Of a stretch of DNA of 64,000 nt, positions 5,415 through 64,000 are shown piece after piece. The notes under the pieces are model-generated. The model saw only the letters and a list, made by a program, of their open reading frames with translations. It was not told the DNA's origin and did not search any database. The stretch lies in the NCBI GenBank assembly GCA_030295235.1, contig AP026138.1, positions 124,001 through 188,000 of the forward strand, in the 5' to 3' direction. Every line of letters begins with the position of its first letter. Position 1 is the first letter of the stretch. Both the position numbers and the translations under genes were made by a program. The DNA comes from Fistulifera solaris (taxonomy: Eukaryota > Bacillariophyta > Bacillariophyceae > Naviculales > Stauroneidaceae).

Positions 5415-8400
5415 ATGGAAGACACGACAGAGGATGCACCAGCACCCGTGAGAAAGATTAAAACGGCTTTTCTTTATTATCAAGGTGATCAGTTGAGCAA
5501 AATACGAGCCGAAATGGGTTTATCGATGGGTGATGCCATGACGCAGGTACGTTGTCACCAGAGAAGTATTCTTAACCGCCATCCTCTCTCACACACACGT
5601 AATTTTGCAGCTGGCCGCACGATGGAGAAACTTATCGGCCGAAGAAAAGCAACCGTACCTGGATCAAGAAGAAGCCGATCGAGAGCGCTTTCGGCGCGAA
5701 TCGGCGGAAGCGGATGCCAAAGCCATGGCGATTCAGGAAGCCCGCCGACAGGCCTTGTCGATCCAGGACGGAGAAGATCACACGAGTCGGGGTGCTCGTC
5801 GTCGCGTCGAGCAAATGCGTGAACTGAAGCAACAGAATCATCGGGAACCGACGTGGTCAGCGGAAGTCCTCGAGCGACGAGCGCAGCAACAAGCGGAAAC
5901 GGCGGCACGACGGGAAGAACGAGCGAGGCAAGAAGAAGAGTTAAAGAAGAAGCACCGGAAATTGGATAAGGAAGAATCGAAGAAGGCAGCGCAACGATTG
6001 GAATACCTGCTGGCGCAGTCGTCCATCTTCTCCAGGCTCCAAGACAAGAGCAAAGCGGAAGGAAAAAATAAGGAAAACGGAAAAGCTCGTCAGCGTGGAG
6101 CTCATCATATTCATGATAAAGATAGCACGGCTTCTGATGAAGAAGTGGAAGACGAGGAAGAGAACGGCTCGAATACGGTTTTTCTTTCGCAGCAGCCATC
6201 CTGTATCAAGTTTGGACAGTTGAAGCCATACCAACTTGAATCGCTCAACTGGATGATTCATTTATCGGAGAAAGGTTTGAACGGAATCTTGGCAGATGGT
6301 AAGTACGAAAAGCTGCTGCGCGTAATGCTTTGCTTTCGAGTGACTTGTTCTGACATGCTATCTTACCGTCATAGAAATGGGTCTCGGAAAAACCTTGCAA
6401 TCAATTTCCATCATGGCATACCACTACGAATATAAACGCAGTCAGGGCCCTCATTTGATTTGTGTTCCTAAATCGACCTTATCGAACTGGATGAAGGAGA
6501 TCCAAAGATGGTGCCCGGCACTTCGAGTTATCAAGTTCCACGGTAGTCGAGAAGACCGCGAGGAGATGGTCGATAACTTTTTCACGAACGAGGCTGCCGC
6601 ACACGACGGCCGTCGACCTGATAAGCAGATTATGAATGGGTCAGGGGAACTGATCGATGATAACACGGATAATCCGCGTGCGTGGGACGTCTGTATTACC
6701 ACGTATGAAATTGCCAATATGGAGCGAAAAACACTACAGAAGTTCACTTGGCAGTATTTGGTCATTGATGAGGCACATCGTTTGAAGAATGATGCAAGTA
6801 TGTTCAGCAAAACGGTCCGATCGTTCCGTACGTCCAATCGGTTGTTGTTGACGGGTACTCCGCTGCAAAACAACCTCCATGAGCTGTGGGCATTGCTCAA
6901 TTTTTGCTGCCCGATATCTTTTCATCTGCTGAGCAATTTGATGAGTGGTTTGACCTTGAAATCGAAGACGAAGAGGCAAAGAAACAAATCATTTCTCAGT
7001 TGCACAAAATTTTAAGACCGTTCATGTTGCGCCGTCTCAAGTCGGATGTGGCCAAGGGTCTTCCGCCAAAAACAGAAACAATCTTGTACGTCGGTATGTC
7101 GAAGATGCAAAAGCAGCTTTACAAGCAGCTGCTAATGCGAGACTTGGACAGTATTACCGGTAACGCTTCTAGCAAGAATCACACAACCATTCTTAACATT
7201 GTGATGCAGCTCAGAAAGTGTTGCGGTCACCCTTATCTGTTCGAAGGAGTCGAAGATCGGTCGCTGGACCCTTTAGGCGAACACCTTGTCGAGAATTGTG
7301 GAAAATTGAGCATGGTCGACAAGCTTCTGAAACGTTTGAAAGAGCGAGGGGATAGAGTTCTTATTTTCACTCAGATGACCCGGGTACTCGATATTCTGGA
7401 GGATTTCATGTTCATGCGGGGATACCAATATTGTCGAATTGACGGAAATACAAACTACGATGACCGAGAAAGTCAAATCGAGGAGTTCAATAGACCAGGA
7501 AGTGAAAAATTTTGCTTCTTGTTGTCGACGCGCGCCGGTGGATTGGGCATTAATCTTCAAACAGCCAATATCTGCATCCTCTACGATTCCGACTGGTAAG
7601 TGATGAATTTGCATTTGTCGTAACCTTCGTTTAGCATGTCGCCAATTTTGCTGACACCACTTTTATGACAGGAACCCACAGCAAGATTTACAAGCACAAG
7701 ACAGATGCCATCGCCTTGGTCAGAAAAAAGCCAGTAACTGTCTTTCGTCTAGTCTCAGAAAATACCATTGAAGAAAAGATAGTGGAACGAGCGCAACAAA
7801 AACTAAAGCTTGACGCTATGGTAGTGCAACAAGGGCGCCTTAAAGACAAAGATAAAGTCACTAAAGAGGAGATTTTGGCTGCGGTCCGTTTCGGAGCAGA
7901 CACAATTTTTCGTTCGGAAGAGTCCACTATCACCGACGAAGATATCGATGTCATCCTTCAGCGCGGAGAGGCAAAGACAAAAGAATTAGCCGAGAGGCTG
8001 CAAAAGGCCGACAAAGGAGATCTTTTAGATTTTAGACTCGATGGAGGGATATCTGCTCAGACGTTCGAGGGAGTTGACTACAGCGACAAGGATCTGCGTG
8101 ATCATTTACGGATGCTGGCGGCGAACTCGGTTGGAAAACGTGAACGAAGACCTCCTCCAAGCAGCTACAATCCCATCATTCAATCCAAAAAGTCCATGAT
8201 TGTGAATAATAAGCGTATCAAATTGCCAAAGCCACTTCGACTTCCTCAGATGGAAGACCACCACTTTTATAACCGAGAACGTTTGCTCGAACTAGGAGAG
8301 CTTGAGTTTGAAAACTACGCGGCGCTGCGCGAAAAGGTCAGCTTCCAGCTAAGGAGGTCATAGAACGAAATCGATCCCTTTTACCTCCTGAGATGGCCCA

Positions 8401-10218
8401 GGAAAAACGTGAACTGATGGAAGAGGGTTTCGGGGAGTGGAGCCGCAGTCAGTATTATCATTTCGTTAAAGCGTGTGCCAAATACGGAAGACATGATATT
8501 GCAAGCATTGCTGCTGATATGGATATGCCCGAAGAAGCAGTTGCTCCGTACAGTGAAGCATTCTGGAAGTACGGCCCTACTGAACTCAAGAATGAATGGG
8601 AGCGCGTTCTGGGTAATATCGAACGCGGAGAGAAGAAGCTGGCAAAACAAAAGAAGCTTAGTGGTTTGCTGACTAAGTTTGTTCAAACCTTTGATAATCC
8701 TCGTCATGAAATGGTGTTTGCTAACAAGGGAACAACTCATTTCGCACTTGAACAAGATCGAGCACTGCTTTGCGCAGTCGAAAAGCATGGCTATGGGAAC
8801 TGGGATTTAGTTCGTGAAGAGATTCGGACGGATAACGCTTTGAAATTTCAGCATTCGGTTCAAGGTATGTCAGTTCAGGCGATCGCCAAGCGCTGCGACT
8901 ACAGAATGCGTCAGATGGAAAAAGAACTCGAAGCTCGCGAGAAGATGATGAAGAGCAGAAAACCCGCCAATGTTCTAGCAGCTCAACGTGCGGTCGAATC
9001 GATTCGGGAAATGGATTTGTGGGATATCCAAGCACGCGAAGCCGAATTGGAAGGAGAAGTTCCGCCACCAATCAGCGGCCTTTCTGAGACGGCCCGATCG
9101 GTTTTGCAGGAGCGATTGACCGACCGCGCAGCACACATAGCACGCTTGCGGGAAATAGAAGTACAAGTACAAAAGTGTGCCCTTATTGCGGAAGAAACCC
9201 GACAGGCTATTCTACGAGGAGATCAGTATGTCAACTATAGCAGTATCACATTGAAGTCCGCCACTGGACCTTCCGGAAAGGACGATACCAAACCAGCTGG
9301 CCCAACGATTCAAGACGGTATTGAAATCGAGCGTTTGATCAATCCTTTGATCCTGAAAATTCCAGCTTGCCGACAGTGCGAAAACTGCAATACGAATACA
9401 AAACTTTGCTACAGACGATTGGAGGAGCGTGAGCGTCTTTTGGCCGAAGAGACCGCGAAAAGATTAGGAAACGACGGCGTAAAGAAAACCAAGAAACGCA
9501 AGCATGGCGATTCGTTGGCTACGTCTTCTCCGAAGAAGGCTGCATCCTCCTCGTATACCGTTAAGCCCCTGGAGCCCCCGAAAAAGAAGAAAAAAGCTGC
9601 TCATGCAAAAGGCGGACGGTCAACTAAAAGTCCGTGTCACTTCCCAAGGCAACAAGCGCATGACCATTCCTGACGAAGTATTTCCCGAATTTGTTCGCCG
9701 TGTCGGCTTGGGTACGGGTGAACGTGTGAGTGTCATCAATCAATTTGTGGAGGATTACCCCACGATTTCCGCGCGTCAAGTGACTCTCAAGTTTCAAGAA
9801 ATTTGTACGAAAGATCGACCGAAGTGTGTGCCGCCGGAACTCACGCCGAAAAAGAAGAAGAAAAATGGGACGGACGTTTATGTTTTATTTGCGGCCTTGT
9901 TTTTACAAGCACTTGGATCCGGAAGTTCGTCCGCCTGGTTGGGAAGCGTATGCTGAAGCCGATGAGATTGAATGGCAGCGCGAGTTGACGGCCAATCCTC
10001 GTCCATCCGACCATGAAGAAGGAAGGTCGCCGGACAAGCTGAGCAGCTCCGGTTCGGTCACTTCCAATTTGAATGACTCGCAAGTGATGGAGGATGTGGA
10101 CCATTCCGTCGACGATGCTTCTGGTACGGGTGAAGAGGGGTCTGGATTCGGAGAAGATGCTTCCGGAACCGGTGATGATCCCATGGATACTGGGGATGAA
10201 ACGGAAGACGAAGAGTAG
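5415..10218 (+). CDS. ISWI: ISWI-type chromatin remodelling ATPase with N-terminal HMG box
   Basis: Nucleosome-sliding SNF2 ATPase of about 1528 residues. Exons are 5415-5546, 5611-6298, 6375-7595 and 7672-10218, all with GT-AG introns. Order of domains: an HMG-like box (FLYYQGDQLSKIRAEMGLS...LAARWRNLSAEEKQPYL); SNF2 N-lobe with Walker A LADEMGLGKT (rebuilt across intron 2), the DEAH box IDEAHRLKN and TGTPLQNNLHELWALLNF; helicase C with ILRPFMLRRLKSDV, LIFTQMTRVLDILEDF and STRAGGLGINL; then HAND, SANT (GEWSRSQYYHFVKACAKYGR) and SLIDE domains; then a Cys cluster CRQCENCNTNTKLC and an extra conserved C-terminal region ending in an acidic tail. Five one-base indels break the frame: losses in the runs at 6901-6905 and 8332-8335, and gains at 7724-7729, 9590-9595 and 9862-9866. 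Correcting each restores ISWI. It is longer than typical ISWI (about 1000-1100 residues). Confidence 0.93.
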
Positions 10219-11507: not shown

Positions 11508-12814
11508 ATGCCCAAAGTAGGAAGAAGAAGAAAAAAGAATCGAACGCACGTCGTTGAAAATGAAGCTCCGCAATCCGCTCTAACGGCCAAGAAGGCGGAA
11601 CTCAAAGTACCCAAATCACTCGTGATGCGTCGGGGGAAAACCGCACCCGAAGTCGGAGAGCTGGTTGCCGATTTACGGCATCTCATGTTGCCGTATACGG
11701 CATTGCATTTTCAGGAAGACCCGAAAAATCGGAAATTGACGTTATCACAGTACGCGACGAATCTCGCGTTGCCCATGGGCATTACCCACATGATGTCGTT
11801 CTCACAAAACGACGAACGTCTCAATATGCGTTTGGCACGAACTCCCGAAGGCCCGACATTGTCGTTTCGGATTCACCAATTCAGTCTCACGAAACATATC
11901 AAGAAATTACAAAAACGACCCGTTGCGTACACGGCATCGCTGAGTTCCAATCCACCCATTGTCGTGACGAACAACTTCGGTGACGCGGCGGCTCCTCCGC
12001 ACGTCAAACTCATGCGCATTACCTTTCAAAATATGTTCCCCGCGACGAATGTTTCGACGGTGCGGTTGAGTGAATGTCGTCGTGTGGTATTGTTTCATTT
12101 ACTGGAAGATGACGATGGACGATCGGTGGTGCAAATGCGTCACTACGCGATCCGCGCGACGCCCGTCGGTGTCAATCGTCGCATTCGACGCATCGTGCAA
12201 GACAAATTGCCCAATTTGAGCAAATGTCAAGACATTGCGGATTATTTAGGTGGTGGTGTCATGTCGGATGGGGCCAGTGATTCCGAGCCGGAAGAAGATT
12301 TAGTTGTGCAATTGCCCGACAAGTACGTTGGCAAGGGCAATGCCAAGTCCCAAAAGTCGGCCTTGAAATTGGTCGAAATCGGTCCGCGGTTGTCGATGGA
12401 ACTGGTCAAAGTGGAAAAGGATTGGGTGCCGGTGATGTCTTGTATCATGCGCACGTGCAGAAATCACCCGAAGAGGCTGCGGCACTCAAGGCGCGCAAAG
12501 AGCGTGAAGCGGAATTGAAAATGCAACGAAAGGCACTACAACAAGCCAATGTCGAACGCAAACGCAACGCGGCGGAAGAAAAGAAGGAAGCCAAGAAGCA
12601 GCGCAAGGCGGAACGCGAAAAAGCTACCTTGGAAGCTTTGCGACAGGGAAAGGCCGTTCCGGAACATGATGATGATGACGACGACGACGACGACGACGAC
12701 GACGAGGAGGAGGAGGAGGAGGAGGAGGAGGAGGAGGAAGAAGAAGAAGAAGAAGAAGAAGAAGAAGAAGAAGAAGAAGAAGAAGAAGAAGAAGAAGAAG
12801 AAGAAAGTGACTAG
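11508..12814 (+). CDS. PPAN: Peter Pan/SSF1 Brix-domain ribosome biogenesis protein
   Basis: Nucleolar 60S assembly factor of about 435 residues that in yeast (Ssf1) and animals (PPAN) works on 27S pre-rRNA processing. It starts MPKVGRRRKKNRTHV, a basic nucleolar-type leader. The Brix domain follows: KVPKSLVMRRGK, LRHLMLPYTALHFQED, LALPMGITHMMSFSQ, GPTLSFRIHQFSLTKHI, then the second half with MRHYAIRATPVGVNRRIRRIV and the closing VEIGPRLSMELVKVEKGLGAG-DVLYH. One base is missing near 12415-12420 (AAAAGG), just before DVLYH; restoring it joins the Brix domain to a basic coiled coil (KARKEREAELKMQRKALQ) and the acidic tail of 12 Asp and 34 Glu (12668-12805). The single frame otherwise has no intron. 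Confidence 0.92.
12668..12805 (+). repeat. Trinucleotide tract encoding poly-Asp/poly-Glu
   Basis: Forty-six consecutive GAN codons at the 3' end of the Peter Pan gene, ordered in four pure blocks: GAT x3, GAC x9, GAG x11, GAA x23. All blocks keep the GA-N phase, so the protein reads D12E34. Pure blocks with sharp borders are what slippage growth produces after rare third-position changes. Length polymorphism is likely. Confidence 0.95.
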
Positions 12815-13988: not shown

Positions 13989-13995
13989 TTTTTTT
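13989..13995 (+). terminator. RNA polymerase III terminator
   Basis: A run of seven T on the coding strand begins immediately after the tRNA discriminator base, the usual Pol III stop signal. Confidence 0.85.
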
Positions 13996-17546: not shown

Positions 17547-20500
17547 ATGGTAGGACCGGGCACGAAACGCCCACGGGGCGAACGTAGTGCATTTGCCCAT
17601 CGCCTTCTTTCCGTAGTGGGCTTCGATTCATTGCTTCATCGCCAGGATCATCTTTCTAGGCTCTCGGAAAAGTTTCAGTCGCCCGACACAACCTTGGACA
17701 CGTCTTGGGATCAGTCGTTTGAGACACGTCGATCGTATTCTTCTCGAACAAGAAGAAGCAAACAACTTCAGCACCATCATCATCAACAACAACGCACTAC
17801 TTTACAGAAGGAGGATGATGTCATTATACCCCAAATTCAGAGACTTCCTATGCGATTCTTTCCGACTACTACGCCGGCATTAAATAAGCAAAAAGAGAGC
17901 ATCCGTTGATACAAGCAACACGGAAAGGAGGCCCGCCGATATCCAGCAAAAATGACTCGAGCAAGAACGATGAGTCGAATGATACTCTGGATTTCGTACA
18001 TCCATCTCAGCACGAACAAGAATCGATCCTGCACCACATTAATGATGCACACTCCGATTTTACCGGAGCACCCACAGAAATCATTCACAACCGGAATCGT
18101 GACAACATTTTCCGTGATCTCATTCAGCAACCTACCATCCCTTACGATCCGCCACCGCAAAGAGAGGAGGAAGATTCCGCGCATTCTTGGTCTGCTTCCA
18201 CAATACCCGCCACGAAAGCCATTTTTCGTCCCCGCCCTGACAAAAGCGCTTTTCTTCATCCATGGCAACGAAAGGAACTACCTTTGTCGTCATCGAGCTC
18301 ATCGATACGGAATAAATGCAGCACCGAGACACCGGATCCCGTCTTTTGTTCCCATCCAGACTACTCATCGCCATCAACAAGAGGAGATTCGTTTGGTTCC
18401 GATTATGTTTCGACGACTGCCTTTCGCGATGAGCGGAGCAAGGAAGACGAGTCGGCTCACTCCGCACGGACGTTACACCGAAATGGTTCTGACGATGCTG
18501 TTGTAGTGAATTCGCTGGACCAGACAAACAGAGATTTGACCGGAGAAAATGATTTGGTGCCTGTCACACGGGCAGGCTGGAGATGGCCACCGAGTCGAAC
18601 GGCCGATGACCGTGTTTTACCGAAAACGGAGAAATCGAATGAATCATCGTACGGTCGGAGTCAGTCGCTTATGGTTCATAACAAACACATGCATAATAAT
18701 AACAATTTCCAAGCGGCAGAAAGGAAACCTGCAACAAAGAAATGGAATGTGGATCGTGGCAGTGGTATTCCGACTACGAACACACTGTCATCTTTCTTGA
18801 ATAAAGACTCTGCAGAAATAACACCTTTGGGGGTCAAAAGCGTGCGAGCCAAGTTTGAAAATTGGACCAGAGCATCGCAACATGAGATTGACAGCGACGA
18901 TGGAGGAAGTGTCAAAAGCTTGAGAGAATTGTTCGAGAAGGGTATTGATGCTCAGGAAGAAGACGATGATGACGACGATAGTGGAAGTGTTCAAAGCCTC
19001 AAAGAGAAATTTGAAAAGCCTCGCGGTCAGACAGAAATGAAAACCGACGTGAAGAAGCTAGCTGCATTGTTTGAATCGAAACAGAAAAGCCGTGTGAATA
19101 AACGATTTGATGGTGAAAACGTTGCTGTCAAAAAGGCGTATTCCAAGTTTGAAGAGCTGCACGCGAAATCCAAACGGGCTACGGCCAGGTCTTTCGAGAA
19201 AACAATGAAAACATGTACAGAGGAGCCTGTAGAAAAGAAATCGGATTTTGTTGGTTGTCGGCCGAAACCAGAAATCAATGACATTGAAGTGGAAGAGGCG
19301 CGTTTGCCTCGTGTGTCGGTGGCAGATCGGGTTAGAGCATTCAGCAATGCGAATAGTGGAAAAGCCACCTTGAGTCGCGTTCCGGTGAAACGATTCGCTG
19401 CGACAAATTCACACATCGTAGAGAAGTCGAGAATCACTCAGCAAGAGCATAACAACCATACTATCTACGAAAAGTTGGACCGCCAGGCACCGGTGGTAGA
19501 TGACTCGTCAGACTTACGCATTTTGACAGATGTTCATTCCGGAGAGCACAATTCATCAATTACAATGGATGTTATCGGTAAAGACGGCGGTCCGCAAACT
19601 CAGGAGGTACCAGTTCCCGGCACCAGTTTCCCTACGCAGCAATCAGTAGCTCAGTCGCGATCCTTCCGGGCCAATAGGGGAAGTGGCAGCATTTATTCAC
19701 AAACCTTGGGAACTTACACTAGCCCGAAATCGGGCCCGTTAAAATCGGAACCTAGCTTCGATTCTGCAACGTCTCCTTTGAAGGCGAAATCCACAGTTTT
19801 GACAACTCAACACGAACGCTCAAAGGCGCCTGTTCCTCAACCCATTATTGTTAACGACGAAATCAATGGAAATAAGACTTCCGGAGGCTCTCAATTCGCG
19901 AGAAGTCCAGCCAAGGAAACACCTTCCGCCAAATTGGATGCCAAACCTACGAGACAAATCGCTCCGGGCCCCAATAAGCGCACACTTCTGGATCCAGTGA
20001 AGTACACCAAATCTCTTTCCAGTGATCCGCTCCTTATGGTACGACGAATGGTCAAAAGCAAAGGTTCGAGTTTACCTTTCAATACAGTGAAGCGAAATTT
20101 AAAGAGCAGCAACAAAGGATGCGACGACTTCTCGGATGCTGTCACACTTGATGCATCCATTGCGGAATTGTCGAATATAACAGTGTCCTCCGTTTTGGCA
20201 TGTAGTGATGAGCGTGATACCAATGTCAAAGATCGAAGCGGGTCATCAACAGCAGAGAAGCATACATCGACCATCGATCAATCATCGGAGATTTGCACGC
20301 CCTTGCGCAAAAACGCGGAACATGAAAATCAGATTTCGAAAGATAGAGACAGTGGTATTGTTTTAGCTCGGCGTGCGACCCCAACAAGTTATAGTTTTGG
20401 CACCAGCAACGATAGACAAGAAGCACAAAAACATTCTAAGGCAAGCACCGCCATACCCGTCATCACTCCTCGCACCTTTCCGAAGATCAACAATATGTAT

Positions 20501-21217
20501 CCGACTTCAGAGGACAGCAAGGATGATACTATTTGGGATTCCGGGTGGAACCTAGAGCAAATTGTGGCTTCTTTTCCGGACACCAATACCTCCGGCACGG
20601 ATATCTTTGAGTTCGATTCCGAATGGCAATCATCGCCTTCGCGTGAAACAAGCAATCTTGATTGTGACAAATTACTCAGTAGCGAGACTGTGGTGAAACG
20701 AAGTCCAACGCGAATGTTGCAAGAATCGAAGTATGACTCTCTTTGTACCTCAAAAATACAGGCAGATCGAGTTTCGAGGATAGAGCGTTTGCTGGACAAA
20801 GACAAAGAGCTCCAAGGTTGCTTGAGTCAAACAATGCTCACAGAGGTTCCATCTACGACAATCCAGTTTTCTTCGGACCAGAAGAAACATTTACCTGTAT
20901 GGAAACGACGTTTAGGTAATTCGTCACCATCATCCACACGCACCATTCCGGATCGAAGCGGGCTACCTCCTCGGGACAAGGCAACGCCGTCCTCTGACAA
21001 CAATCACAAACAGTTCGACAACTTGATGAGTCGACTGGCAAAATTGAAGCAGACACGGAGAATGCGTGCGGCCTCGGCATATTCGGTCCCAGTAGCTCCT
21101 GCACCTCGGTCTGCAACCATCAACCTCTGCGCTGACCTGGATGATGTGTCCTCCAGCTCCTTTTCTTCCACTCATTTCGGAGGAAGTGCATTTATGGAAG
21201 CACTGGAAGTCGATTGA
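17547..21217 (+). CDS. Large disordered protein, unknown function
   Basis: About 1223 residues, very rich in Ser, Lys, Arg, Asp and Thr and without a globular domain that I recognise. Translation probably starts at the ATG at 17547 (MVGPGTKRPRGERS). One A is missing in the run at 17890-17894; restoring it joins the first 115 codons to the long remainder. Residues about 420-560 hold four or five related modules of the form SV(K/R)xLxxxFE(K/S) (SVRAKFENWTR, SVKSLRELFEKG, SVQSLKEKFEKP, VKKLAALFESK, VKKAYSKFEELH), which look like short helical repeats. The end has a Lys/Arg helix (LMSRLAKLKQTRRMR) and a Ser-rich tail ending FGGSAFMEALEVD. A scaffold or cytoskeleton-linked role would fit but is speculation. 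Confidence 0.8.
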
Positions 21218-21254
21218 ATCCATTCCTCCTCAACAACGCTAAAATAGAAAAAAG

Positions 21255-42181: not shown

Positions 42182-42509
42182 GACTAGGTCATACTTTGGA
42201 AAACACATTCAATTTCATAATAAAATTTGATCAAATGTTAGTTAGAAACTACAAACATCAACTTCTAGAATCTGGATAACTGTTAGCTCCAAGCTTTTCT
42301 TTCCAAATGGCTACAAGCAAATTAATCGTCGGATCATGAATTCAAGGTCACGGAGAAGGCTCAACTTGAAGTGAGTGTTCTCATACTTTTCTTCGTCCTT
42401 CCAAAAGGAAATTAAGCCTTAAGGAACCAAGCATTCTTTTTTTAATACTTAGTAGGGAATCACATTTTTTTACGTCAACTCTTAGGATTGACGAGATAAC
42501 AATAGAAGA
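42182..42509. other. Short intergenic spacer
   Basis: Just over 300 bases between two plus-strand genes; contains AATAAAA-like 3' UTR sequence near its start and nothing else supportable. Confidence 0.45.
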
Positions 42510-46556: not shown

Positions 46557-47481
46557 ATGAATGCGTTTCGTCTTGCGAATCGTTTGGTTCCACGAACCAT
46601 GGGCGCTATGCGCTCTTCTTCTCGTATATTAGGAACAACAAGTGAGTATTGAGAGTGAAAGTAAAGAAGAGGAAAATAAAAATTGCATCGCAAGGAAAAT
46701 AATCTTCGCTTTTTGGCGTTGCTGCGGTATTTTTACCGTAGGAAACGTACAGCAGGACGAACCCCCGTTCAAAAATACCTCAATCATCGGCACTTGACAT
46801 CAGGAACACATCGTCTGACTCTTTCTTTCTCTTTTTCTTTCTCTCTCATTTCACTATAATAATTAGACGCTCTTCGTCACTTGTCGGTTCCCGCCACACA
46901 AACCACACAAGCACTCGATCAATTGGGCAGCGTCGATCACGAGTACGAATCGACCCGCGTCGACCGCGTCGCCGAACCGGATCGTCGCGCCTTTACTTAC
47001 CTGATGTTGTCGTCGGTCCAGTTTGTGTACGCATCCGCGGCCCGTCTCCTCGTGGTCAAATTGGTGGCCTCCATGGCACCGTCGGCCGAAGTCTTGGCGT
47101 TGGCGTTTGGGGAATTTGATCTGTCCGCACTCGAAGTCGGCAAGACGATTATGGTCGATTGGCGTGGCAAACCCATTTACATTCGACGCCGATCGGTGGC
47201 GGAGATTGAAAAAAGAATCGCAAGTGCAGTTGGATCATTTGCGAGATCAGGAAGCCGACAGTGATCGTACCATCAAGCCGGAGTTTTTGGTGGTGGTTGG
47301 TATTTGTCCGCATTTGGGATGTGTGCCCTTGCCCAACGCGGGAGACTTTGGTGGATTCTTTTGCCCCTGCCACGGATCGCACTACGATGTCAGTGGACGC
47401 ATCCGTATGGGACCGGCGCCGTTGAACTTGGAAGTTCCGCCGTACAAATTCATTTCGGACACGACAGTTCTAATTGGTTAG
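46557..47481 (+). CDS. UQCRFS1: Rieske iron-sulfur subunit of mitochondrial complex III
   Basis: Transfers electrons from ubiquinol to cytochrome c1. Exons 46557-46641 and 46867-47481 (intron 225 nt), 232 residues. The N terminus is a mitochondrial presequence ([23 protein letters not shown]). The membrane anchor is about residues 65-95 ([29 protein letters not shown]), followed by the flexible hinge and [19 protein letters not shown]. One extra A in the run at 47209-47214 breaks the frame; removing it gives [13 protein letters not shown] and the [2Fe-2S] domain with both ligand boxes, [10 protein letters not shown] and CPCHGSHYD, then [12 protein letters not shown]. Ligand Cys/His pairs and the disulfide Cys are intact. 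Confidence 0.94.
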
Positions 47482-47660: not shown

Positions 47661-48962
47661 TCAATTGGGTCGTTTTGTCATCACTTGACTCAATCGTTTT
47701 CGTGTCATGTGATCGGACTTGGAAAGGGGATCCACGTTGTGTCGTGTGCTGCTGGAAGGAGAAACATGGTCCGAATTCGACAAGCGTTTGCAGACACTCG
47801 CTTTGCGCACCAGAGATGCCATCGGATGACTGGGCGATGGTTTGGTAGTTTTTCGACTAACGACCGATCGCTCGTCGCTGTATCTGTCAGGCTTGGACTT
47901 GCGAGTGGAGCCTGTAGTACTCTCATTGGAGTTCTTCATTTTGTTCTTCAACATGTCGTTCCCCGTCAAACTCTTGGAACGTCGACGAGTTGCTACGGAG
48001 CGGTCATCACACCGTCGACGGGGTGATACAGAGCGGTCGTCGGTGCGTTTCGAGCTCTGAACGGCACGACTTTTGACTGTTGCCGTGTCGTCGTCGACAC
48101 GACTTGTTCTCCTTTGTCGACGAGGAGATTCAATGCCTTCTAGAGTGGTGCGTCGCGGTGATACCGTTCGTCGTCGGGGAGACTCCTCGGGTCGCCGAGA
48201 CGGCTTCTCACTCGAAATTTCTTGCTTTTTCTTCACAGGCCTCTTTTGTAACACCGCTTTTGCAACATCATCTTGTCCCTGAGAGGAAGCGACCACCATC
48301 TTTTTCCCTCTTCTTTTATATTCCGAGGGATCACTCACGAGTTCACCACTGCTGCCTTTGCTTTCTTCCGAGAAATCATGCATCAGATCCAGCGACATTA
48401 CCGACGCTGGACCCTGCGCATCGGGTCGTATTGCCCGCGTTCGTCGACGAGGTGAATTCACGCGACCGAGAGATTTGACGGACATTCGTTGTCGAACTTT
48501 GATCGGCGATGCTACGACTTCGGGCTTCACTTTCTCTTTTGTCGTGCCACCTCTTTCGCCCGTGACTTCGGGGCGGTGTCACGTGGGGGAGGAAGAATAC
48601 CCGATGTGGAAGATGAAACGGAATTGTCATCATCTTCTATCTGTTGTGGTCTTTGCGAAACTAGATCGAGTGTTGCTATGGATTTCGGTTTGTTAAAAAA
48701 GTGTATGCTATCCTGAAATGCCCCAATATCACTTCCGAACAAATCTTCAAACGAGCAATTGAACTTCTCAAATGCTGTTTGACTGCTTTTGGGTTTTCCC
48801 TCTCGTTTCTTTTTTTCGATCGGCCATCGCCCCTTGCAAAAAAGCCGAGAAATTGTCTTTCGAGACGTCGGCTTGATAGAGCAAGTCCTCGATTGCCGCA
48901 GCTACGTCGTCCAGCTTCAGTTGCCCTTTGCCAAAAGTGTGGCGAGTTTCCTGCATTATCAT
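47661..48962 (-). CDS. Basic Ser/Arg-rich protein with helical N-terminal domain
   Basis: About 433 residues after two one-base corrections (gain in 48810-48816, loss in 48537-48540). Start MIMQETRHTFGKG is provisional; similar sequence continues upstream to about 49030 but is interrupted by a TAA, so the true N terminus may be further out or in another exon. Residues 1-80 are helical (LDDVAAAIEDLLYQADVSKDNFSAFLQGAMADRKK, FEKFNCSFEDLFGSD). The rest is basic and disordered with many SPRR, RRRT and SxRR units (EESPRRRTVSPRRT, DRSVSPRRRCDDRSV, HVSPSSSTRH), resembling SR-like or microtubule/chromatin-binding tails. No named domain. The protein ends VMTKRPN. Confidence 0.6.
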
Positions 48963-49848: not shown

Positions 49849-52804
49849 CTAGTCTTGATAAGAAACGAATGGCCTGCATTCGAATTGGTAAGGCAAGAAA
49901 CGAACGAGCAATTCAACGGGAGTAGTCTTGCTCGCTTGACGAACGCTTTCGGGCAAACATTCCCGAATCCTTTTCAAAAGATCCTCATCTGATTCTCCAA
50001 AGTCATCGCGATACCATTGGCAGATCCTTGGTAAATGAATCACAAGATCTTTGCTCTTACGAGCCGCGGTCACACACTCGAGATACAAGCGGCTCGCTGC
50101 ATCGAGCTGGCTGTCTAAATCTTTTTCGTTGAAAATGATGATGCTTTCTGGATTGCTCAGTGATCCGCAATTCAAAGCAAAGTTGATACGCCAGTCTTTT
50201 ACATTCAGTGCCAACCGGCCATAGTCAGATTTGGGAATAGCAAAGCGTGATAAAAATTGGGAAGGTGCCGACATCTTGGCTCGGATAATACAGTGTTCCA
50301 GCTCTGTCAGCGAGAAAATATCATCCCCAACTTGGTATGCCACATTGTTGAAGTAATTGATCCACACAAGACCCCAATTCGGCGGACCAAGAACAAGAAA
50401 AGCATGGGATATCATGACATGATATAAGTTCAAAAAGAAGACGAGCTTTCTTTCTTCTGTCAAATTGTTGGTTGTTGTGTCTTTCAGTAAAGCGGCAGCT
50501 TCAAGAAAAGTCCGTGTTGAATCGCCAGCCAGTGCTAGACGAAGCACGCGCGCGACAAGTTCCACGGGATCCTCATTCACGTCCAGCCGATTATGAAACG
50601 AAAAGCGTGCGCAATTCAGCAGTCTTCGATGCTTGCATCGCCACATGGTACTCTTATGCATGAATTCTTCTGCTGGGTTGTCCGAGATCATGTCACTTGA
50701 AACGTCGTCTCTTGCACATGATTGAAGACATCGTAGCCATTCGTCCCGCTGGGCCTCGTTTCGAAACATGAGGTACACAGTTCGACCAGGTGTATCAATG
50801 CTGAGAAAGAAAAACTGGAGTGCATTCGGACAGTCTTCTACAGGCAGACTCTTGACGCCTGTGATTGATGAAACCTGAAAGTGAGCTTTGCTCCGGTCGG
50901 GATGAAAAAATTCAATTCGATCTGGATAAACACGTGCCCATTCCTCGATCCAATGCCGGTCGCTGATAGCGCGAGCGATCAAGCCTTCTGTCAGTAGTTC
51001 AGTTCGTTCTCTGCTGGTTATAGCTGCAAACTTGTAATTTCGCTGTAGAAACAACTCGCCGTAGGTACTAGCCTGAACAGATTTTACTGCCTTGAGTTGA
51101 TTTAGGAGATCAGTTTTAGGATTGACCAGCATTAGTCCCAAAGCGCGCCGAGTCCATTCACTTCCGGATATGCGAGGAGAGAAGTGACTTTCCATTTGTT
51201 TCCGAATCCACTTGTTATTTCGAACAAAATCCTCACAAGCCGAAGCCGGCCACAACGCCCATGGTTCACTTTCGGTTTGAATGGCAAATACTTTGCTGTA
51301 ACCACTCCGACTCGTACACACTTCCAGCCAAAAGGGGCAGGCAACGTCGATTTGTGCCAACAGACCAATTTCGTCGTGCTGCGGAAGATGTACCTGTGCA
51401 GTATCCCGTTCACTTATATCATTTGTCATTTCCTCAGCATCAAAATAGTAATACGCATCTTCCGTACTGTCATCATCAATGGTAAAAACACCGCTTTCTC
51501 GACGTTTCAAATTTTTTTGCGTGGACTGTACCAAAACTTTGGGGCGAGTGGAGCCGGACCATCGGAAAATGTCATTGTCTTCTTCTTCTGGCTGGATTGG
51601 TTCGGTCACCGCTCCCAGATACTTCAACTGCACTCCAAACGCGTACCGCTTGTTGCGTGCAGTATGTTTTTCTTTCGGGGGAGCATCGTAGAAACAGAGA
51701 TTCACGGGAGAATCGCCCCAAAATGTCTGCAATGCCACATCTCCCGATACCGGCAACTGCACCAATTTCCATTGTGCTAAATCAATGTACATGGAAAAGA
51801 ACTCCATCGAGTACGTATCGGTCGTATTCCACGATCCCGTCGACTGTGTTTCTTTTCGAAACTGCATCGATTCCGGGGTTTCCTCCCACATATCCCCCCA
51901 AACGTGGGGGTGTTTGAGACGGTGGCGTCACGATCCATTTTTCCATGGCCGTAAATGCAGGAATGACAATGTGGGCCATTTCCTCGTCGTCGTCCGTCCC
52001 AAACGAGTAATGCACATTCGAATGAAATCGTTGCACTAATTTCAACAAGAGGCGTGCGACACCTTGTGTGACCAATCCCAATCGCATCGGTTGCAACAAT
52101 TCGGCGCCCGCGTACAAGACACCCTGTGGCACTTGGCGGAAGGTGCCTTGAATTTGCCAGACGATGCGTCGTTTCTTTTGGGCAAACAGCCGGGTATGCC
52201 AGTACGGATCTTGGTTCGGTGGAAGCGGTTTGATGACCATGAGACAGTGTCCATCGAACAACTCATTTTGAAAAGGAATGGGTTGTGTGGCATTTAGTGG
52301 AAAAGCAGTATTTGTTGTGTGAGTATTGGTTTGCGGCAGCCAGGTCGCTTGCAGCGAAGGAAGAAGTGATGGTGGACTTTTGTTGTTGCTTGTCTCATCA
52401 ATGCCTGCCAAATATCGCGCTAACGCTCGTCGTCGTTCTGTTTGTGAACAAAACGTTTCGGGTACAAATATAATTTTAGATTGACTGGGCAATCGCAATT
52501 CGGGCAATCTTGTATCGTGCAATTGGATTGTCGTCGTCGAAAGAATCGTTAACTCCGACAACACGGAAATTGCCAAACGACTGGGATGAGGACCTTGGAC
52601 TAGAAACAATGTGACGCCGTTTTCAAAGGATATAATGCAAACAGTGTCGTCAATATCTTCGCGCACAGCATTCGGGAATTGTTGTAACAAATATTGAGCA
52701 TCGTCAGAAAACTGGGGCGTCGAAAGCGTCCACATCTTCGGTGTTTGTTTTGTGTTGGATTCGGCTGCGCCATTCGTATCATTCGAGGAAGATGTATTTC
52801 CCAT
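49849..52804 (-). CDS. N-myristoylated DUF1769-PH-DUF547 protein
   Basis: About 984 residues once one extra G (C on the plus strand, run 51894-51899) is removed; as written it splits into a 340- and a 680-residue frame. Start MGNTSSSNDT is a textbook N-myristoylation signal, so the ATG at 52804 is preferred over 52852. Residues about 185-270 match DUF1769 (FDGHCLMVIKPLPPN, IVWQIQGTFRQVPQGVLYAGAEL). Residues about 610-720 form a PH domain (WIEEWARVYPDRIEFF...YLMFRNEAQRDEWLRCLQSC). The C-terminal 250 residues are a DUF547 domain (RKLVFFLNLYHVMISHAFL, INYFNNVAYQVGDDIFSLTELEH, DWRINFALNCGSLSNP, YLECVTAAR). The lipid anchor plus PH domain suggest membrane association; the biochemical role is unknown. 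Confidence 0.85.
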
Positions 52805-53166
52805 TGTAGTTTCATTAAGTATTATCGTGCAGGTCAAAAAAGACTCAAGCAAATGAATTGTAGGCTTCTCATCATTATGGGAAAATTACGATTTTGTTTG
52901 TTGTCGTGTTGGTTTTAGAAAGCCAGCGACGCGTTTAGCTCCCAGTCACGTTTGGGGAGAACACGCAGGAACATCCCCCGCTGTGACGTCATTGAGAGCT
53001 GGTTGTTTCGCGCGACGATCTGTCCTTCGCTCGTCGGTTCTCACCGAAAAATCCGACACCGATGAAACACATCATCATCATCGCGACGATGCGACAGGCA
53101 AAGACCGCCCTTATTGTTGGCCCTTTCTTGTTGCAATTCTCATTGATAGCACTAATAAGACTCAAG

Positions 53167-54779
53167 ATGTTTCAACGATTCTCCTTCCACATCAGAAGAC
53201 TCCAACCTTCCGCTCAGAAAGCTGCACTGGCGACTGCGACTGCGGCCACTTGTTACTATTCGTTGTCTCGCCACGTTGAGCCCCACCACACCCTTTTTGT
53301 GATTCCAACGAAACTACTACTACTACGTTACTCAATTGGAGTGGCACACATGCTGTCACTACTTCGCACTATTGGGAACCGGAGACCGTCGAACAAGTCG
53401 AAGCCATCGTGCAACACTGTCAACGCCACCGCCAGACCCTTCGTCCTTTGGGTTCGGCCTTGAGTCCGAATGCCATTGGCTTTGCTTCCGAAGGAATGTT
53501 GCAAATGGCCGGATTGGATCGCATTATTCGTGTGGAAGGACAACAAGTGACGGTGCAGGCGGGGGCGCGGGTCTCGCAAGTCATCGAAGCGCTGCGAGAA
53601 CATCAATTGACGTTGCCGAATTTGGCGTCCATTGCCGAACAACAAATGGGAGGATTGATTCAAGTGGGTGCCCACGGGACGGGACGGACGTTGGCGCCGT
53701 TGGATGCATATGTGACACAACTCAAACTCGTGACACCGGCGCATCCTCGCGCTGTCACTATTACTCGGGAAGATCCCTTGTTTCACTTGTGTACCGTGGG
53801 GCTGGGATGTTTGGGTGTGGTGGTGGAAATTACAATGCAATGTGTCCCAGCTCATGAATTGGTGGAGCATACATTTGTCGTGTCACGGAAGGAAGCGATC
53901 GAACGTGTGCAGGAATGGTTGCAAGAACACAAGCATATGCGGTATATGTGGATTCCGTACACGGATTCGGTTGTAGTCGTGACGAACAATCCACGCGAAA
54001 AGTGGTCGGACGGTTCAGTTCCGACACCCACTGTCTTTTCTCGAGAGGAACAATTTCGACCATTATTGGACTTGTTACACGAACTGGATCCGGATGTGGA
54101 TGCTATCGGAATGGGATTTGGCGAATTGCGCGATGCCCTCTTGGCCTTTGATCCACTGAATTTGGAACATGTACAACGGTGCAATCGTGCGGAGGCAGAA
54201 TTTTGGAAAAGAAGTCAAGGATATCGCATTCGACCCAGTGACGAAGTACTGCAATTTGATTGTGGAGGACAGCAGTGGGTGTGGGAAGTATGTTTCCCGA
54301 CGGGTACACAAGAAGCGACGAATGGGAATGATATGGCCTACATGCAAAAGCTATTGCAGGGGATTGAAGAAACGCATCAAATACCAGCACATGCACCGAT
54401 CGAACAACGCTGGTCTGCCTCATCGCCTTCGAAAATGTCACCGGCTCATGGAGATGCGAATGGCTTGCACTCATGGGTCGGAATTATTGCGTATTTGCCT
54501 TCCGAAGATGAGCGTCAACGACGACAGATCACTGACATGTTTACTGGGATCTATTGTGATTGGATGCGTCAAGTGGGACAGCCGTTTCACGCAACGAGTC
54601 ATTGGGCTAAATTAGAACGTCCCGCATCGATGAATCGTCTTATTGATTTGCAATTGTTTTTGCAACAAAGATTTCCCTTACATGAATTCAATGCGTTGCG
54701 AGCCAAACTGGATCCGCACAATATACTGGCAAACCCATTATTGAATCTGATCTTGGGTGATCCTCGTAACCTAGACTGA
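53167..54779 (+). CDS. GLDH: L-galactono-1,4-lactone dehydrogenase, mitochondrial
   Basis: Last step of plant/algal ascorbate synthesis; FAD enzyme that feeds cytochrome c in the inner mitochondrial membrane. About 537 residues from ATG 53167, whose N terminus MFQRFSFHIRRLQPSAQKAAL is a good mitochondrial presequence (another ATG at 53062 is in frame). One T is missing in the run at 53294-53298; adding it joins the leader to NWSGTHAVTTSHYWEPETVEQV, the family start. FAD-binding part: RPLGSALSPNAIGF, VTVQAGARVSQVIEALREH, MGGLIQVGAHGTGR. The usual C-terminal closing segment LRAKLDPHNILANP is present. No Val/Leu-His-covalent-flavin motif is seen, as expected for GLDH rather than gulonolactone oxidase, although exact subtype is less certain than family. 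Confidence 0.9.
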
Positions 54780-56536: not shown

Positions 56537-57378
56537 TCAAATCACATTTTTGTAATCCGGAGTATCCCGAAACTGGCCAGGCGAATGGATACTGTGAAGA
56601 TTTATGGGATGATTGGAAGCATCATCCAAGTAGCTATCACTCAAGTCCTCATCATCGTGAAATTCCCGATGACGATGATGATGATTCTTCCGAGGGAACC
56701 AGGTACGATTTTGAAACTTGGCCACGGCCCGGCGTGTAAACGCATGGTAGCGCCATCGACGGGATCGACATTTCCGGCGGTACAAAAACATCCCACCCAT
56801 CGCTAATAAAACAAGCAACACCGAAACGACCCACAAAGCCGTTCTTCCAGAAGATGAAACAATGATATCGTCGGGTGCCAAAGATGCTCGAACATCACAA
56901 GAAGGACCCGTCCATCCGGAAGGACATTGACAGAATCGGAGGATCATACCGTGATCGTTTCTCGTCTCTCGACATGTCCCATGATTGTAACATCGAAATC
57001 CTTCGTTGCAATTTTCGTACGGCGTTTCACACAATCGGCCCGTGAAATATCCCATACACCGACAAGTAAATTTGGGTTTGCTTTTGTCGTTACTATCTTG
57101 TGTCGAACGACAAATACCGCCATGTTGACAAGCCAGAGGACAAAAGTGTTCACAGCGCGAGCCAGTGTACCCATCGGCGCAGACGCATTGCAAAAAGGTT
57201 CCTTGCCCTGTTTCTGTATAGCGACAGGTACCTCCGTGGAGACATTGAGCGTTGCTGTTGCAGGTTTGGTGTAATATTGGAGATTCACTCGTAGCGACGG
57301 GTAAAAGAGCGAATATCAGGGCGATCGGTATTCGACGGAACGAATTCTTCGTCGTTTGTTGCGGTCTTTTTCTAACAT
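56537..57378 (-). CDS. Type I membrane protein with three EGF-like repeats
   Basis: About 280 residues if the start is the ATG at 57378 (MLEK...). That frame needs one extra A in the run at 57367-57371. The resulting N terminus, RRIPIALIFALLPVATSE, is a good signal peptide; without the correction the frame is open much further upstream but no ATG sits near the signal peptide. Three EGF-like modules follow, each with six Cys: CNSNAQCLHGGTC..., CPLACQHGGICRS..., CNEGFRCYNHGTC..., with closing CVCADGYTGSRCE, CRCMGYFTGRLCE and CQCPSGWTGPSCD. One membrane helix (TALWVVSVLLVLLAMGGMFLY) precedes a basic cytosolic tail (RRKCRSRRWRYH) and a His/Asp-rich end. Probably a surface receptor or adhesion protein. 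Confidence 0.8.
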
Positions 57379-57914
57379 CTGTTGCACTGTGGAGATTCAC
57401 TGACCCAAAATGGTTGCCATTGTTGTTACTTGTGGCGTTGCTGTGGCAAGGCTGCTTTAGTGGATTGCAACATTCTTCATGGCAATCATCTTCCTTTTTC
57501 TCTCCAACGAATGTCTTTCGGTGGCGGCATTCAACGGATCGATCGCGGCTCGCGGCCCGAGTGAAATGCGGTGAGACGTCCGATTGTACACTCTGTGCAT
57601 GTGTTCGACACACGAAAACCGGACTCGTTCCACAAGAAGCAAGACTCAATCGTCCAAAGAAGAGACCGGATTCGTTTGTACACTCTACTATCAGCATTAT
57701 AATATAATCTGTATGTATGAAAACCGGTATGTCAATCCTATGACTACACTTTTGTATCGACTTTATGCGAGATTGGACAAGAACAAAAACTGGTCTCCAA
57801 CAAGGCGGAGACGCTTGATTTTTTTCCCATTGCACTTCATCACTTTTCTTCTCATAAAAAGAAAAGATCATCATTCTTTTAGTCTATCAACTCATCAAGC
57901 AACGAAACAAAACC
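57379..57914. other. Divergent promoter region
   Basis: About 530 bases between the EGF-repeat gene (minus) and the TALE homeodomain gene (plus). The minus-strand open frame continues here, but only through an apparent 5' leader. No gene on its own. Confidence 0.45.
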
Positions 57915-58998
57915 ATGGCAGGTGACGACTTGGATTTAATGCTCCAACATGAATGCTTCCCCACCATGGTCGAGCTCACGCTCCTGATCCAACAAGGATA
58001 TCAGGCCATCCGCGATCGAACAGGACGGACCTATACATCCCAACAAAAGCTCCCAAAGAGTAGCTTGACCTTGGACGAAACCATGAAGGCCACGCTTCAC
58101 ATGCAACAAAAGCTCCTCTCCAATCCCAAAGTCCCACGAACCGTCGTTCGTCGTCGGCAATATCCCATCACCGATGCCATTATCGATGACTCATTGCGCA
58201 TCCTCCGACGAGAATATGATGACATTCAAAACTATGAACAAGACCCGAAAGCCGCACAATCGGTCCACGAACCATCATTGAAGAAGAAAGGGTCCAAAAG
58301 GAAGCCATCGCCATCAAGTATGCCAAGTGGCAGACCGATATTCTCATGAAGTGGATGGTCGATCACAGTGAAGAACCCTTTCCCGATCAAACCGCGATTG
58401 CCCAACTCATGTCTCAAACAGGTTTATCGCAATCGCAAGTCGTCAATTGGACCACGAATGTGCGAAAGCGCAACAAAAAGGCCACTTGCCAAGGCGGAAA
58501 GAAACCCCATCACTTTATTGACTTTATGTTTCTCGTTCAAGAACGAGAGCAACAACACCAACTGGGACCGCCGCGTCGGAAAAGTTGGCGACACCGGCTT
58601 CCCGCCGTGCGGCGGCCATGGTGTCTCCCTCATCGCAGTGCAGTGCAAACTCGTTTCCTTTGGAAGACGACGATGTCTTGCTCATCGAAGATCCCGAAAC
58701 GGAATTGATGCAAGAATTTGCCAGCACGTGGCTCAAAAATGAACAAGAATCAACGGAACCGTGGTTGGTAGACGAGGACGTACCACTTGGTGATGCCTTT
58801 GAAGAGTTCATGGCCGAAACGTATCAGCCTCCGCACTTGCTACCGAGCGTCACCGATGACAGCACCGAGCAGGACATGGTGGGTCTAAAGCGGTCTCGAT
58901 CCTTCGATATTGATGACAGCGAAGTAGACAGCGACTTTGAGGAATGGGTTCAATCCTTCGATTTGAATGAAATGGATCTGGAGATGGAAATCGCGTAA
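57915..58998 (+). CDS. TALE-type homeodomain transcription factor
   Basis: About 361 residues, starting MAGDDLDLMLQHECF. Two one-base losses (58296-58299 and 58564-58566) split it into three frames; restoring them gives one protein. The homeodomain lies at about residues 125-190: AIKYAKWQTDILMKWMVDH, then the three-residue-extended loop SEEPFPDQ, helix 2 TAIAQLMSQTGLSQSQV, and recognition helix VVNWTTNVRKRN with the invariant W, N and R. Directly after is GGKKPHHFIDFMFLVQERE, a segment I associate with diatom homeodomain proteins. The C-terminal part is acidic (DDSEVDSDFEEWVQSFDLNEMDLEMEI), a possible activation domain. A PIxDAIID segment upstream may be part of a partner-binding region. Confidence 0.88.
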
Positions 58999-60736: not shown

Positions 60737-61946
60737 CTACTTTTCATCGCCAACTTGTTGTTGTTGAATTTCCCACGCATCATTGATGACATCCCACAAC
60801 AATTTTAGCAAACAGGTTTGTTCCGTACTCATATCCCGAGGCCACTTGTCGGGATGCAAAAAGAATCGGACATGCTTCATGTTGCTGCGCTTTTGCGGCC
60901 ATGTGTCAAAATAGGCGTGATGTGCCACGAGGGCAAAATTGTGATGCAACGTCGGTAGCAATTGCGACAAATCCCGAAGGCATTGGTAGGCCGGCGGTCG
61001 TAAGGCCCAGTCCCGCGTCACGCGTTCTTTCAATTGGGCCGGTGTCAAGCAGGGCGTTTTCTGTGATGTTGTTGTTGTTTTGAGATCCGGTGGAGCACTG
61101 GAACTTCGATGCAGTGATTGTGCTTTCAAAGGGGGGAGTGGGAAGTGGACTGGGTCGAACGGGTTGCGAGACGGGGGCGCTGTGGATGCGGGTGGCTGGA
61201 ACCGCTGCCGGTCGATGCATCGTCGCCGGGGGCTGCATGGCGGGCGAAGAATACTGAGGCGGGCGATTGTTCCAGGAAGGTTGCGGATAATGTTGAGGAT
61301 AATGATAATGTTGTTGTGGAAATGTTGATTGTTGCGGGTGCGGAAAATTGCGATGTTGAAGATGTTGTGAATGATGAAAATTAGGTGGTGGCTGCTGGTG
61401 ATGCAAGGGACGCTGCTGATGCAAAGGCAGAATCGGTTGCGAGACTCGTGGCATCGGTCTGACAGGGTCATCAAACGAAATCAGATTGTTGTCTTCTGGA
61501 ACTTGTGGAATCGTTGGCGTGGTTGTTGTTTGCAACAATTGCCCCACGAGACGAAGGGTCGAGACCCAATTTCGTGCCGCCTCACGATTTCGTGGACATC
61601 TCAACACAATGTCGTCTTCTGCTGCTGCCAAGCGAATTACAAACCGATGTTCTCCCGCGGACAAAGCATCGTCCTCGTTGAATTCGACCTGCCCCACCGC
61701 TTCGATGGGAAATTGATGCAACGTTTGCCGTGTTTCCGCTCGTTGAATTATGACAATGGGTGATCCCTGTTTCATCAGTGATACGAGAACCGGTTTCCAG
61801 ATACGCGTTAATTTCGAACGACGCAATTGTTCTAAAGTTCCTTGGGCAATGAACTGACTTTCGGGAGGAAAGGTTTGAAAGTAATGTTGCGACGAAGCAG
61901 ATTTTTGTGAAGATGACAACCAGTCGTCGTCATTCCTGTGATTCAT
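60737..61946 (-). CDS. PH domain plus auxilin-type J-domain protein
   Basis: About 402 residues after removing one extra base from the G run at 61131-61136 (C run on the coding strand). Start MNHRNDDDWLSSSQ is preferred; an ATG at 62021 is possible. Residues about 30-140 look like a PH domain (FIAQGTLEQLRRSKLTRIWKPVLVSL, EHRFVIRLAAAEDDIVLRCPRN, ARNWVSTLRLV). The middle is Gln/Pro/His-rich, like clathrin-adaptor linkers. The last 90 residues match an auxilin/GAK J domain: LRDLSQLLPTLH, then MKHVRFFLHPDKWPRDMS with the HPD motif that activates Hsp70, then LLKLLWDVINDAWEIQ. It may recruit Hsc70 to phosphoinositide membranes to uncoat clathrin vesicles, which is inference. Confidence 0.75.
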
Positions 61947-62391
61947 TCTCTCGCTTCTCGAACGAAAAGACTGTTGCGTCTGTTGCTCGAGGAAGAGAGA
62001 AATCAAGGAAGGAACTATCAATGGAATACTTGTAGCTGTTACTACGTATGATTGATGTTGTCGTTTGGTTTATGTTTTTGTTTTGTTTTTCGTCGCAACA
62101 AATAATAGACTATAAATAGAGGGGCGAAACAAGACTGATTTTCCGTTGAAACATCGAGGTACACTCAAGTGCTATAGTCTTATTCCACGTAACCTGAACC
62201 TTACGACCGACAGCTAAAAAAGCGGTGCACTTTTTTTGCGTTGCAGGTTGCAGCACAATTAAACAAAGAAGCATAATCAACAAGGATCCTTTGACATTCA
62301 TAACATTCGTTCGTCTTTCTTCTCATTCTTCTATTATTTCTTGTTCTCCCTGTTTCACTTTTTCCTTCGCGAAGCGAAAAGAGCATTCATC
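61947..62391. other. Divergent promoter region
   Basis: About 450 bases between two divergent genes. AT-rich with a T-rich stretch before the plus-strand ATG. No gene seen. Confidence 0.45.
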
Positions 62392-64000
62392 ATGAGTACG
62401 AACAAGAAGAAACACGATACTATTATGCACCGCAACGAATCCATTTTACGCTGTCAAGAACAGATTCGGACCTTACGACACCAACTGCAACAACACAAAC
62501 GGGCTTGGAAACAGCATTATACTACAACTGCCCTCCGAAGGATCGGAGGAGATGCCTGGCTGGATTTGTCGATGAAAGAACAAATCTCGAAATCGAATTT
62601 GTTGCTTCTCTTGCAGAAAGAAAACGAAGCTTTGCCGTATCCCCTTGGCGGCAGTCACTTTTGGACGCAGCAATTGCCATCGCATTTACAGAGTGATAAA
62701 GAGTTGTGGCTGGCACGCTTGAAACGACCGGAATTGGGTTGTTTGAGCGAAGTGTGTGGCATAACGTTACCCGAGTCGTTGCTGCACGATCGCGATGTGG
62801 TGATCGCGGCCGTTCGGGCGTGTCCCAAATTCTTGCTAGAATGGGAGACTTTGGCTGTAGCAGAATCCTTCTGGGACGATCGGCGCGTGTTTCAGGCCTT
62901 GTTAGAAGCCCAAGGCCGTCGTGATCCTTATGTGCGACTCTTTTCGGTATCTTTGCGCAGTGACGCGGAACTCATGTTAGAGGCGCTGCGGCAGGGCATT
63001 CGTGTGTTTGAAGTCTTGCCGAAAGCCCTGCGGAATTCCAAATCATTTGCGTTGCAAGCTGCGGCTATTTTACAAACGTCGAGTCATAAATCGTACGGAC
63101 TAAAATCTCTCAAGGCTTTTTCGCCGCGCTTAAAGGCCGATTTGGAGGTGGTACGAGCGTTTTGTCAAGCCGATGGTACGTCACTGGCATGTGCATCGTA
63201 TGCGGCACGTCGGAATCTCGACATTGTGCGGACGGCGTGTTTCCAAGAACCGACGGCTTTTGTGTATTGTGTCAAAGGAAGGACACGGACCAAGCTCAAT
63301 CAGCATCCTTCGTTTTGGTTGGAAGTGCTGCAGCGCGCTCAAGTTTTGTGTGAATGTTCCCTGACGGTCGTCAACGGCAAACTTGTTTTGGATCCACGCA
63401 TTGCGTTATGGGATCGATTATGGGAGAATATGCCACAGAACATTCGGACGAACCGCGAAATTGCTCTGCTCCTGCTCGAAAAAGCACCCTCGAGTAGTCG
63501 GTATCGGTCACTCCCGTTATCGGTCTGGTCGGAACCGTCCTTTTGTTGCAAGTCGCCAAAATGGGTCGATTGCATTCATTGCCCGTGGCGGACAATATGG
63601 AACTGGGTCTCATGCCATATCTCCATTTGGATTTTTGTTGTCAGCTGGTGTCGCACGAGTACCTGTGTCCCCATGTCGTCCAAGCGATGATGCACCAGCT
63701 CCCTACGGCGGCATCTCAACGGCGTTTTTGGGAATCTTGGAATCCGAGCCAAATGGAGGAAACCTTGGAATTTATTTGGGAGCAAATGCCCGAAGACATT
63801 CTGAACGATAAAGCCATTATGATGAAATTTGCAAAATGCGACGAAGCGGCGGAGCATTTGGCGCGTATTATTTTATGGGAACCCGAAGATCGAGATATTT
63901 TGGAGCAATTGTTGCGCACGTATCCCGAGGCCCTCGAGGAAGTTCCCAATCACATCCAAGAGCTCTATCCGGATCTAATTGCTCAGTGCATTGCGGATTT
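62392..64000 (+). CDS. DUF4116-like repeat protein, 3' end outside window
   Basis: About 536 codons visible from MSTNKKKHDTIMHRN; the frame runs off the window. It shows irregular helical repeats of the type DRDVVIAAVRACPKFLLEWE, DDRRVFQALLEAQGR, SDAELMLEALRQGIRVFEVLP and RLKADLEVVRAFCQADGTSL, which resemble DUF4116 repeats (D(R/K)EVVLxAVxxxGxAL). The N terminus is basic and coiled-coil-like (ESILRCQEQIRTLRHQLQQHK). One base seems missing near 63517 (TT); correcting it gives LVGTVLLLQVAKMG and carries the frame to the window end (MPYLHLDF...EPEDRDILEQLLRTYPEALEEVP). No catalytic motif was seen. Function unknown. Confidence 0.72.

Follow-up and report, generated by a model that had tools for sequence, protein, structure and literature searches.

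The one-base frame breaks scattered over the genes of this stretch of Fistulifera solaris DNA are almost certainly run-length errors of nanopore sequencing. Artefacts of this kind are known, here in an assembly that has been published, and in the living cell the genes are most likely unbroken. The stretch (hereafter the window) comprises 64,000 nucleotides, C23:124001-188000 of a 51.7 Mb genome in 61 contigs. Base-calling and consensus polishing would have written some homopolymers one base short or one base long, and frame breaks in the sampled contigs number roughly one for every 3 kb of coding sequence; the step responsible was presumably the base-caller, the polisher, or both. Sequencing error had also been preferred in the preliminary description of the window. 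This preference is supported by the ONT assembly, by the plastid copies that it contains, by the even density of breaks, and by the damage found in the partner copy.

The nanopore origin of the assembly follows from its name and from matching published statistics. GCA_030295235.1 is named Fsolaris_ONT_v03reference in the reference list of PMC12159174, where it is one of two F. solaris assemblies cited, and the F. solaris entry of that paper gives 62 sequences, 52 Mbp, an N50 of 1,355,535, and a longest sequence of 2,726,884. F. solaris carries two homoeologous chromosome sets, according to PMC5935921. In agreement with an allodiploid F. solaris, our family searches of the assembly placed partner genes on C23/C24, C27/C29, C1/C2, C3/C4, C15/C16, and C34/C35. 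Genes predicted from this assembly may come out truncated or split, which may also distort any tally of the genes that are fragmented or lost in this allodiploid. The annotation effort in PMC12159174 remarks on unexplained duplicates, and at another point that paper calls Fistulifera allopolyploid.

Frame breaks and the genes that carry them

Twenty-five one-base frame breaks had been listed in the window. Eighteen of them are supported at or beside short homopolymers, and seven (17890, 24173, 28635, 29984, 43474, 53294, and 57367) found no support in any test. The breaks were sought with a coding-frame hidden Markov model that has an intron option and was trained on long open frames of 20 other samples and of the window; in its final form, GAG at the end of an intron was all but disallowed. 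Over the 43.9 kb of coding sequence in the window it yielded 13 direct frame shifts, none of them farther than 51 bases from a listed position and none new. The positions of its breakpoints are uncertain by tens of bases. Its recovery of planted changes was 48 of 60 for deletions and 51 of 60 for insertions, which means that it will overlook some of the true shifts. Two earlier versions were discarded: the first, lacking an intron state, called 17 window shifts, four of which fell where the final model has introns, and the second read 6901 and 8332 as short introns with poor splice sites and miscounted minus-strand introns as shifts.

Each listed site was also submitted to a likelihood test of its own, with the window excluded from training and a threshold of 6 that we chose ourselves. 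At a half-width of 150, 13 of the 25 sites pass, compared with 1 of 500 random coding sites; these are 12 sites called by the frame model and 28470. At a half-width of 90, just 2 of the 25 pass. The model and the per-site test between them support 14 sites: 6901, 8332, 9590, 9862, 12415, 26184, 28470, 47209, 48537, 51894, 58296, 58564, 61131, and 63517. Homology adds four others, namely 7724 and 48810 from the homoeologous contig C24, and 30687 and 30796 from a paralog. Of the 25 listed coordinates, 24 fall in a run of at least 3, though the sites had been selected for runs when they were listed. Against the reading as error, some breaks lie in runs no longer than 3-4, or the 15 bases on either side of the breakpoint given by the model contain no run of 3.

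Matches in Pfam or the PDB show conserved families divided between frames in the clearest cases, namely SNF2, UCR_TM/Rieske, and Duc1. The ISWI-type remodeller gene (5606..10214, plus strand; introns called by the model at 5547-5610, 6299-6374, and 7596-7681) has breaks near 6901, in a T run, and near 7724, 8332, and 9862, in A runs, with a further one at 9590 or in the preceding run at 9581. Its Pfam SNF2 domain is divided over two frames, SLIDE is in another piece, and the pieces match ISWI chains of the PDB in order. The gene of the mitochondrial Rieske protein (46863..47478, plus strand) is broken at 47209, in a six-A run. Pfam places UCR_TM in one frame and the Rieske domain in another, and the pieces match residues 95-192 and 182-272 of a single PDB chain, 8bel_D; a piece in the third frame of this region gave no notable match. 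In the Duc1-PH-DUF547 gene (49852..52885, minus strand), both the frame model and the per-site test place a break near 51894, in a six-C run, and the Duc1 profile is matched from 8 to 147 in one frame and from 164 to 237 in the other.

The gene at 30410..32860 (minus strand) has two opposite breaks, near 30796 and 30687. The reading frame alternates over its three pieces, which match a single paralog (33639-34367) in order, at residues 5-156, 147-159 (13 residues, E 0.002), and 155-242; unlike this match, the frame model read 30682-30819 as an intron. The gene at 47664..48901 (minus strand) is broken near 48537, in an A4 run of the coding strand after which the first frame meets a stop within a few codons, and near 48810, where T7 is written and C24 has T6. 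The first of these breaks is supported by the frame model, the per-site test, and the comparison with C24; at the second, the per-site gain is 4.0, below the threshold of 6, and the comparison with C24 alone calls the break.

The largest per-site likelihood gain, 18.6, belongs to the break near 12415, in an A run of the Brix-domain gene (11562..12809, plus strand; Brix domain in the first frame), which the frame model also called. Model and per-site test agree as well on the breaks near 58296 and 58564 in the Homeobox_KN gene (57858..58995, plus strand), where the domain is confined to the middle piece, and on the one near 61131, in a six-G run of an open frame (60740..62069, minus strand) that matched no Pfam family. 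In the DUF4116-repeat gene (62263..64000, plus strand), the family is strong in the first frame and weak, below its cut-off, in the second; for its break near 63517, a direct shift was called at 63504 and the per-site gain is 5.2, below the threshold of 6. The ankyrin-repeat/kinase-like region (25842..30342, plus strand) contains ankyrin repeats and a partial Pkinase match slightly below cut-off. It retains two of four claimed breaks, 26184 (frame model and per-site test) and 28470 (per-site test alone); 28635 and 29984 are unsupported. The frame model and the per-site test gave no support to the claimed breaks at 17890, at the start of a long open frame (17888..21214, plus strand); at 24173, in an open frame (24158..25276, plus strand) that matched no Pfam family; at 53294, at the start of a D-arabinono-lactone-oxidase-like gene (53280..54776, plus strand); and at 57367, in an EGF-domain gene (56540..57883, minus strand), the family being matched in the last two. 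For 43474, in the Hydrolase_4 gene (42492..43499, plus strand; family matched), a search with the 27-residue piece gave no match, and the per-site test was likewise without support.

The homoeologous copies

The partner of the window on C24 was located by family searches; it had escaped DNA searches that used pieces of the window, despite stretches about 93% identical. The pieces that we compared total 4,778 bases and were mostly chosen at window breaks, which biases the counts, and two of them lie beside the intended sites. They cover the ISWI, Rieske, and Duc1-DUF547 genes, together with portions of one or two further genes. The partner could be read at nine listed sites, and seven of the nine breaks are private to the window, one of them (51894) by inference. 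C24 is unbroken at 6901, 7724, 8332, 9590, 9862, and 48810. Near 51894, C24 also shifts frame within about 20 bases; the C run is longer in the window and the adjoining G run is longer in C24, and these opposite differences point to two private breaks at different runs. C24 has four breaks of its own: one in the ISWI gene opposite about 6981, two in the Duc1-DUF547 gene near 51894, within about 50 bases (one being the break proposed there), and one opposite about 41440. As written, both copies are thus broken in this ISWI gene (other SLIDE genes lie on C27, C29, C1, and C2), in the Duc1-DUF547 gene, and in the Rieske gene.

At the two remaining sites, 47209 and 48537, both homoeologs have the same break in the same run, at a DNA identity of about 93% around the first and about 87% around the second. 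The Rieske pair (window 47209; C24:154850-155550) has a common six-A run and frame break, inside a stretch of about 90 bases that is identical between the copies, and the protein is conserved on either side of the break in both. UCR_TM has two matches in the whole assembly, both with the break, and no third was found. The partner of the break at 48537 lies on C24:156400-156950. Shared breaks at two of nine sites would be rare under independent random errors. This is a counter-point to sequencing error, and it implies that not all breaks are random private errors. At least three private breaks (6901, 9862, and 48810) also have identical or near-identical flanks, so that sequence context alone does not decide the matter of the shared ones. 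The loss of the Rieske protein of complex III means grave trouble for the cell, and with both copies broken, the breaks are not to be taken at face value. The two shared breaks most likely reflect a context-dependent error made in both copies.

The shared breaks, and a Rieske protein that in each copy is conserved before and after its break, are also what would favour real changes of run length, tolerated because full proteins would still be made, either through frequent slippage during transcription or translation or through programmed frameshifting. Genome-wide translational frameshifting occurs in Euplotes ciliates, where, as here, many conserved genes require a change of frame. Unlike the case of Euplotes, however, the F. 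solaris breaks show by eye no fixed slippery codon before a stop, and most of those compared are unshared, only two of nine being common to both copies. Moreover, the plastid copies described below carry the same run-length signature, and 53 shift contexts inspected by eye reveal no fixed motif, although AAAAG turns up repeatedly where a base is missing. As a general account of the breaks, tolerated run-length change is therefore very improbable. We give similarly little credence to a narrower version, in which the written runs would be real at a few sites, chiefly in the Rieske gene, with the protein depending on a conserved frameshift or on slippage at that run.

Run lengths in plastid copies and across contigs

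The assembly contains copies of the plastid genome that can be compared with each other, on contigs C60 (232,645 bases) and C61 (116,223 bases). There are two copies of psbA on C60 and one on C61; psbD has two copies, both on C60, and was not found on C61, which need not be a complete plastid copy. Over 3,882 bases of the psbA locus, the two C60 copies show no substitution between them and 2 gap openings. Each of them differs from C61 by no substitution and by 28 or 26 gap openings, all in A/T runs, and the C61 run is always the shorter. The two C60 copies of the psbD locus differ by no substitution and 7 gap openings, all in runs. All four plastid comparisons thus show copies that differ in run length without substitutions. 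To our knowledge, no biology alters run lengths alone between copies of one organelle genome; consensus error does. The nuclear breaks presumably have the same cause as these plastid differences. The rpoB gene reads as one uninterrupted frame (1170 codons) in the first half of C60, and it is in several pieces, some with stops, in the second half of C60 and on C61.

A contrast in quality between plastid copies that resembles that of rpoB is also visible in the RNA_pol_Rpb1_5 matches. Separately, two open copies of cox1 lie 43 kb apart on C57, and those on C58 and C59 are in pieces, most with stops; the latter two contigs are perhaps further mitochondrial copies of poorer quality.

In 10-kb samples from 20 other contigs, whose coding part amounts to 130.8 kb, the frame model finds 40 shifts (0.31/kb), very close to the 13 in 43.9 kb of the window (0.30/kb). 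The counts are not over-scattered among the 20 samples (dispersion chi2 22.4, 19 df). Of the 53 shifts (13 in the window and 40 elsewhere), 23 have one base extra and 30 one base missing. A run of at least 5 lies within 12 bases of 30% of these shifts, compared with 6% of 10,000 random coding points; for runs of at least 6, the values are 17% and 0.8%. This concentration at runs is what nanopore error is expected to produce. Runs of 6-8 are below the expectation of a Markov model, a result of little weight, since that model had been fitted to the very sequence it was compared with. C12 and C18 share a near-identical repeat, and over 2.2 kb its two copies show 5 substitutions but 12 gap openings, with several gaps outside runs; this pattern is compatible with error but does not fit it cleanly. 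Several of the gaps between these repeats lie beside CG instead of in runs, and we would guess at a methylation-linked base-calling error behind them.

Sequencing error of this kind has a close precedent in the nanopore-only assembly of Drechmeria coniospora. As PMC7500977 describes it, homopolymer indels shifted the frame of conserved genes, with runs both too long and too short, as in F. solaris, and a large share of 305 conserved genes was affected prior to short-read polishing. Polishing there added more insertions than deletions, so the extra bases seen here are not odd. Illumina reads served to fix the errors in D. coniospora, whereas for F. solaris the argument is built on plastid copies and homoeologs of a single assembly.

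The remaining alternative is that one subgenome decays after hybridisation, with the partner homoeolog covering the loss of frame; the preliminary description had left a decaying duplicate genome copy possible. The genome is indeed allodiploid, and C24 lacks seven of the nine compared window breaks (one by inference), but the main expectations of this reading were not borne out. The resemblance to homoeologous gene loss in allopolyploids lies in the two homoeologous sets per nucleus of F. solaris (PMC5935921). The difference is that the breaks of F. solaris are found in both copies, consist for the most part of one base gained or lost at a run, and affect both homoeologs of the same gene. Redundant-copy decay would also be expected to leave more in-frame stops than we found. 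The unbroken frames of the window and the 20 samples (264 kb) hold at most 5 candidate stops, against 53 shifts; one of the five is directly upstream of an open frame, and the other four remain candidates. The test recovered 79 of 80 planted stops and replaced an earlier nonsense test that proved blind (2 of 60 planted stops recovered). The ISWI pair differs synonymously in 57 and nonsynonymously in 13 of 382 codons, a pattern that resembles the one left by purifying selection. With C24 carrying four breaks of its own in the 4,778 bases examined, both copies of the ISWI, Duc1-DUF547, and UCR_TM/Rieske genes broken where a broken and an intact member would be expected, break density even across the 20 samples, few in-frame stops, and chiefly synonymous differences between the ISWI copies, the partner is itself damaged, mostly at other places, so subgenome decay is not the main cause and has hardly any probability left.

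Other features of the window

A repeat of about 1.43 kb lies at 14084-15696, and its copies, at 93-95%, are on C9 (twice), on C19, and partly on C27. It has internal inverted repeats and matched no RNA family. The short-repeat pieces on its flanks (about 100 and about 70 bases) are contiguous elsewhere, for example on C7 and C40, and from its sequence the element looks like an insertion into the short repeat. Close by, at 13892-13989, is a tRNA-Ile (aat) of 98 bases, enough length to contain an intron.
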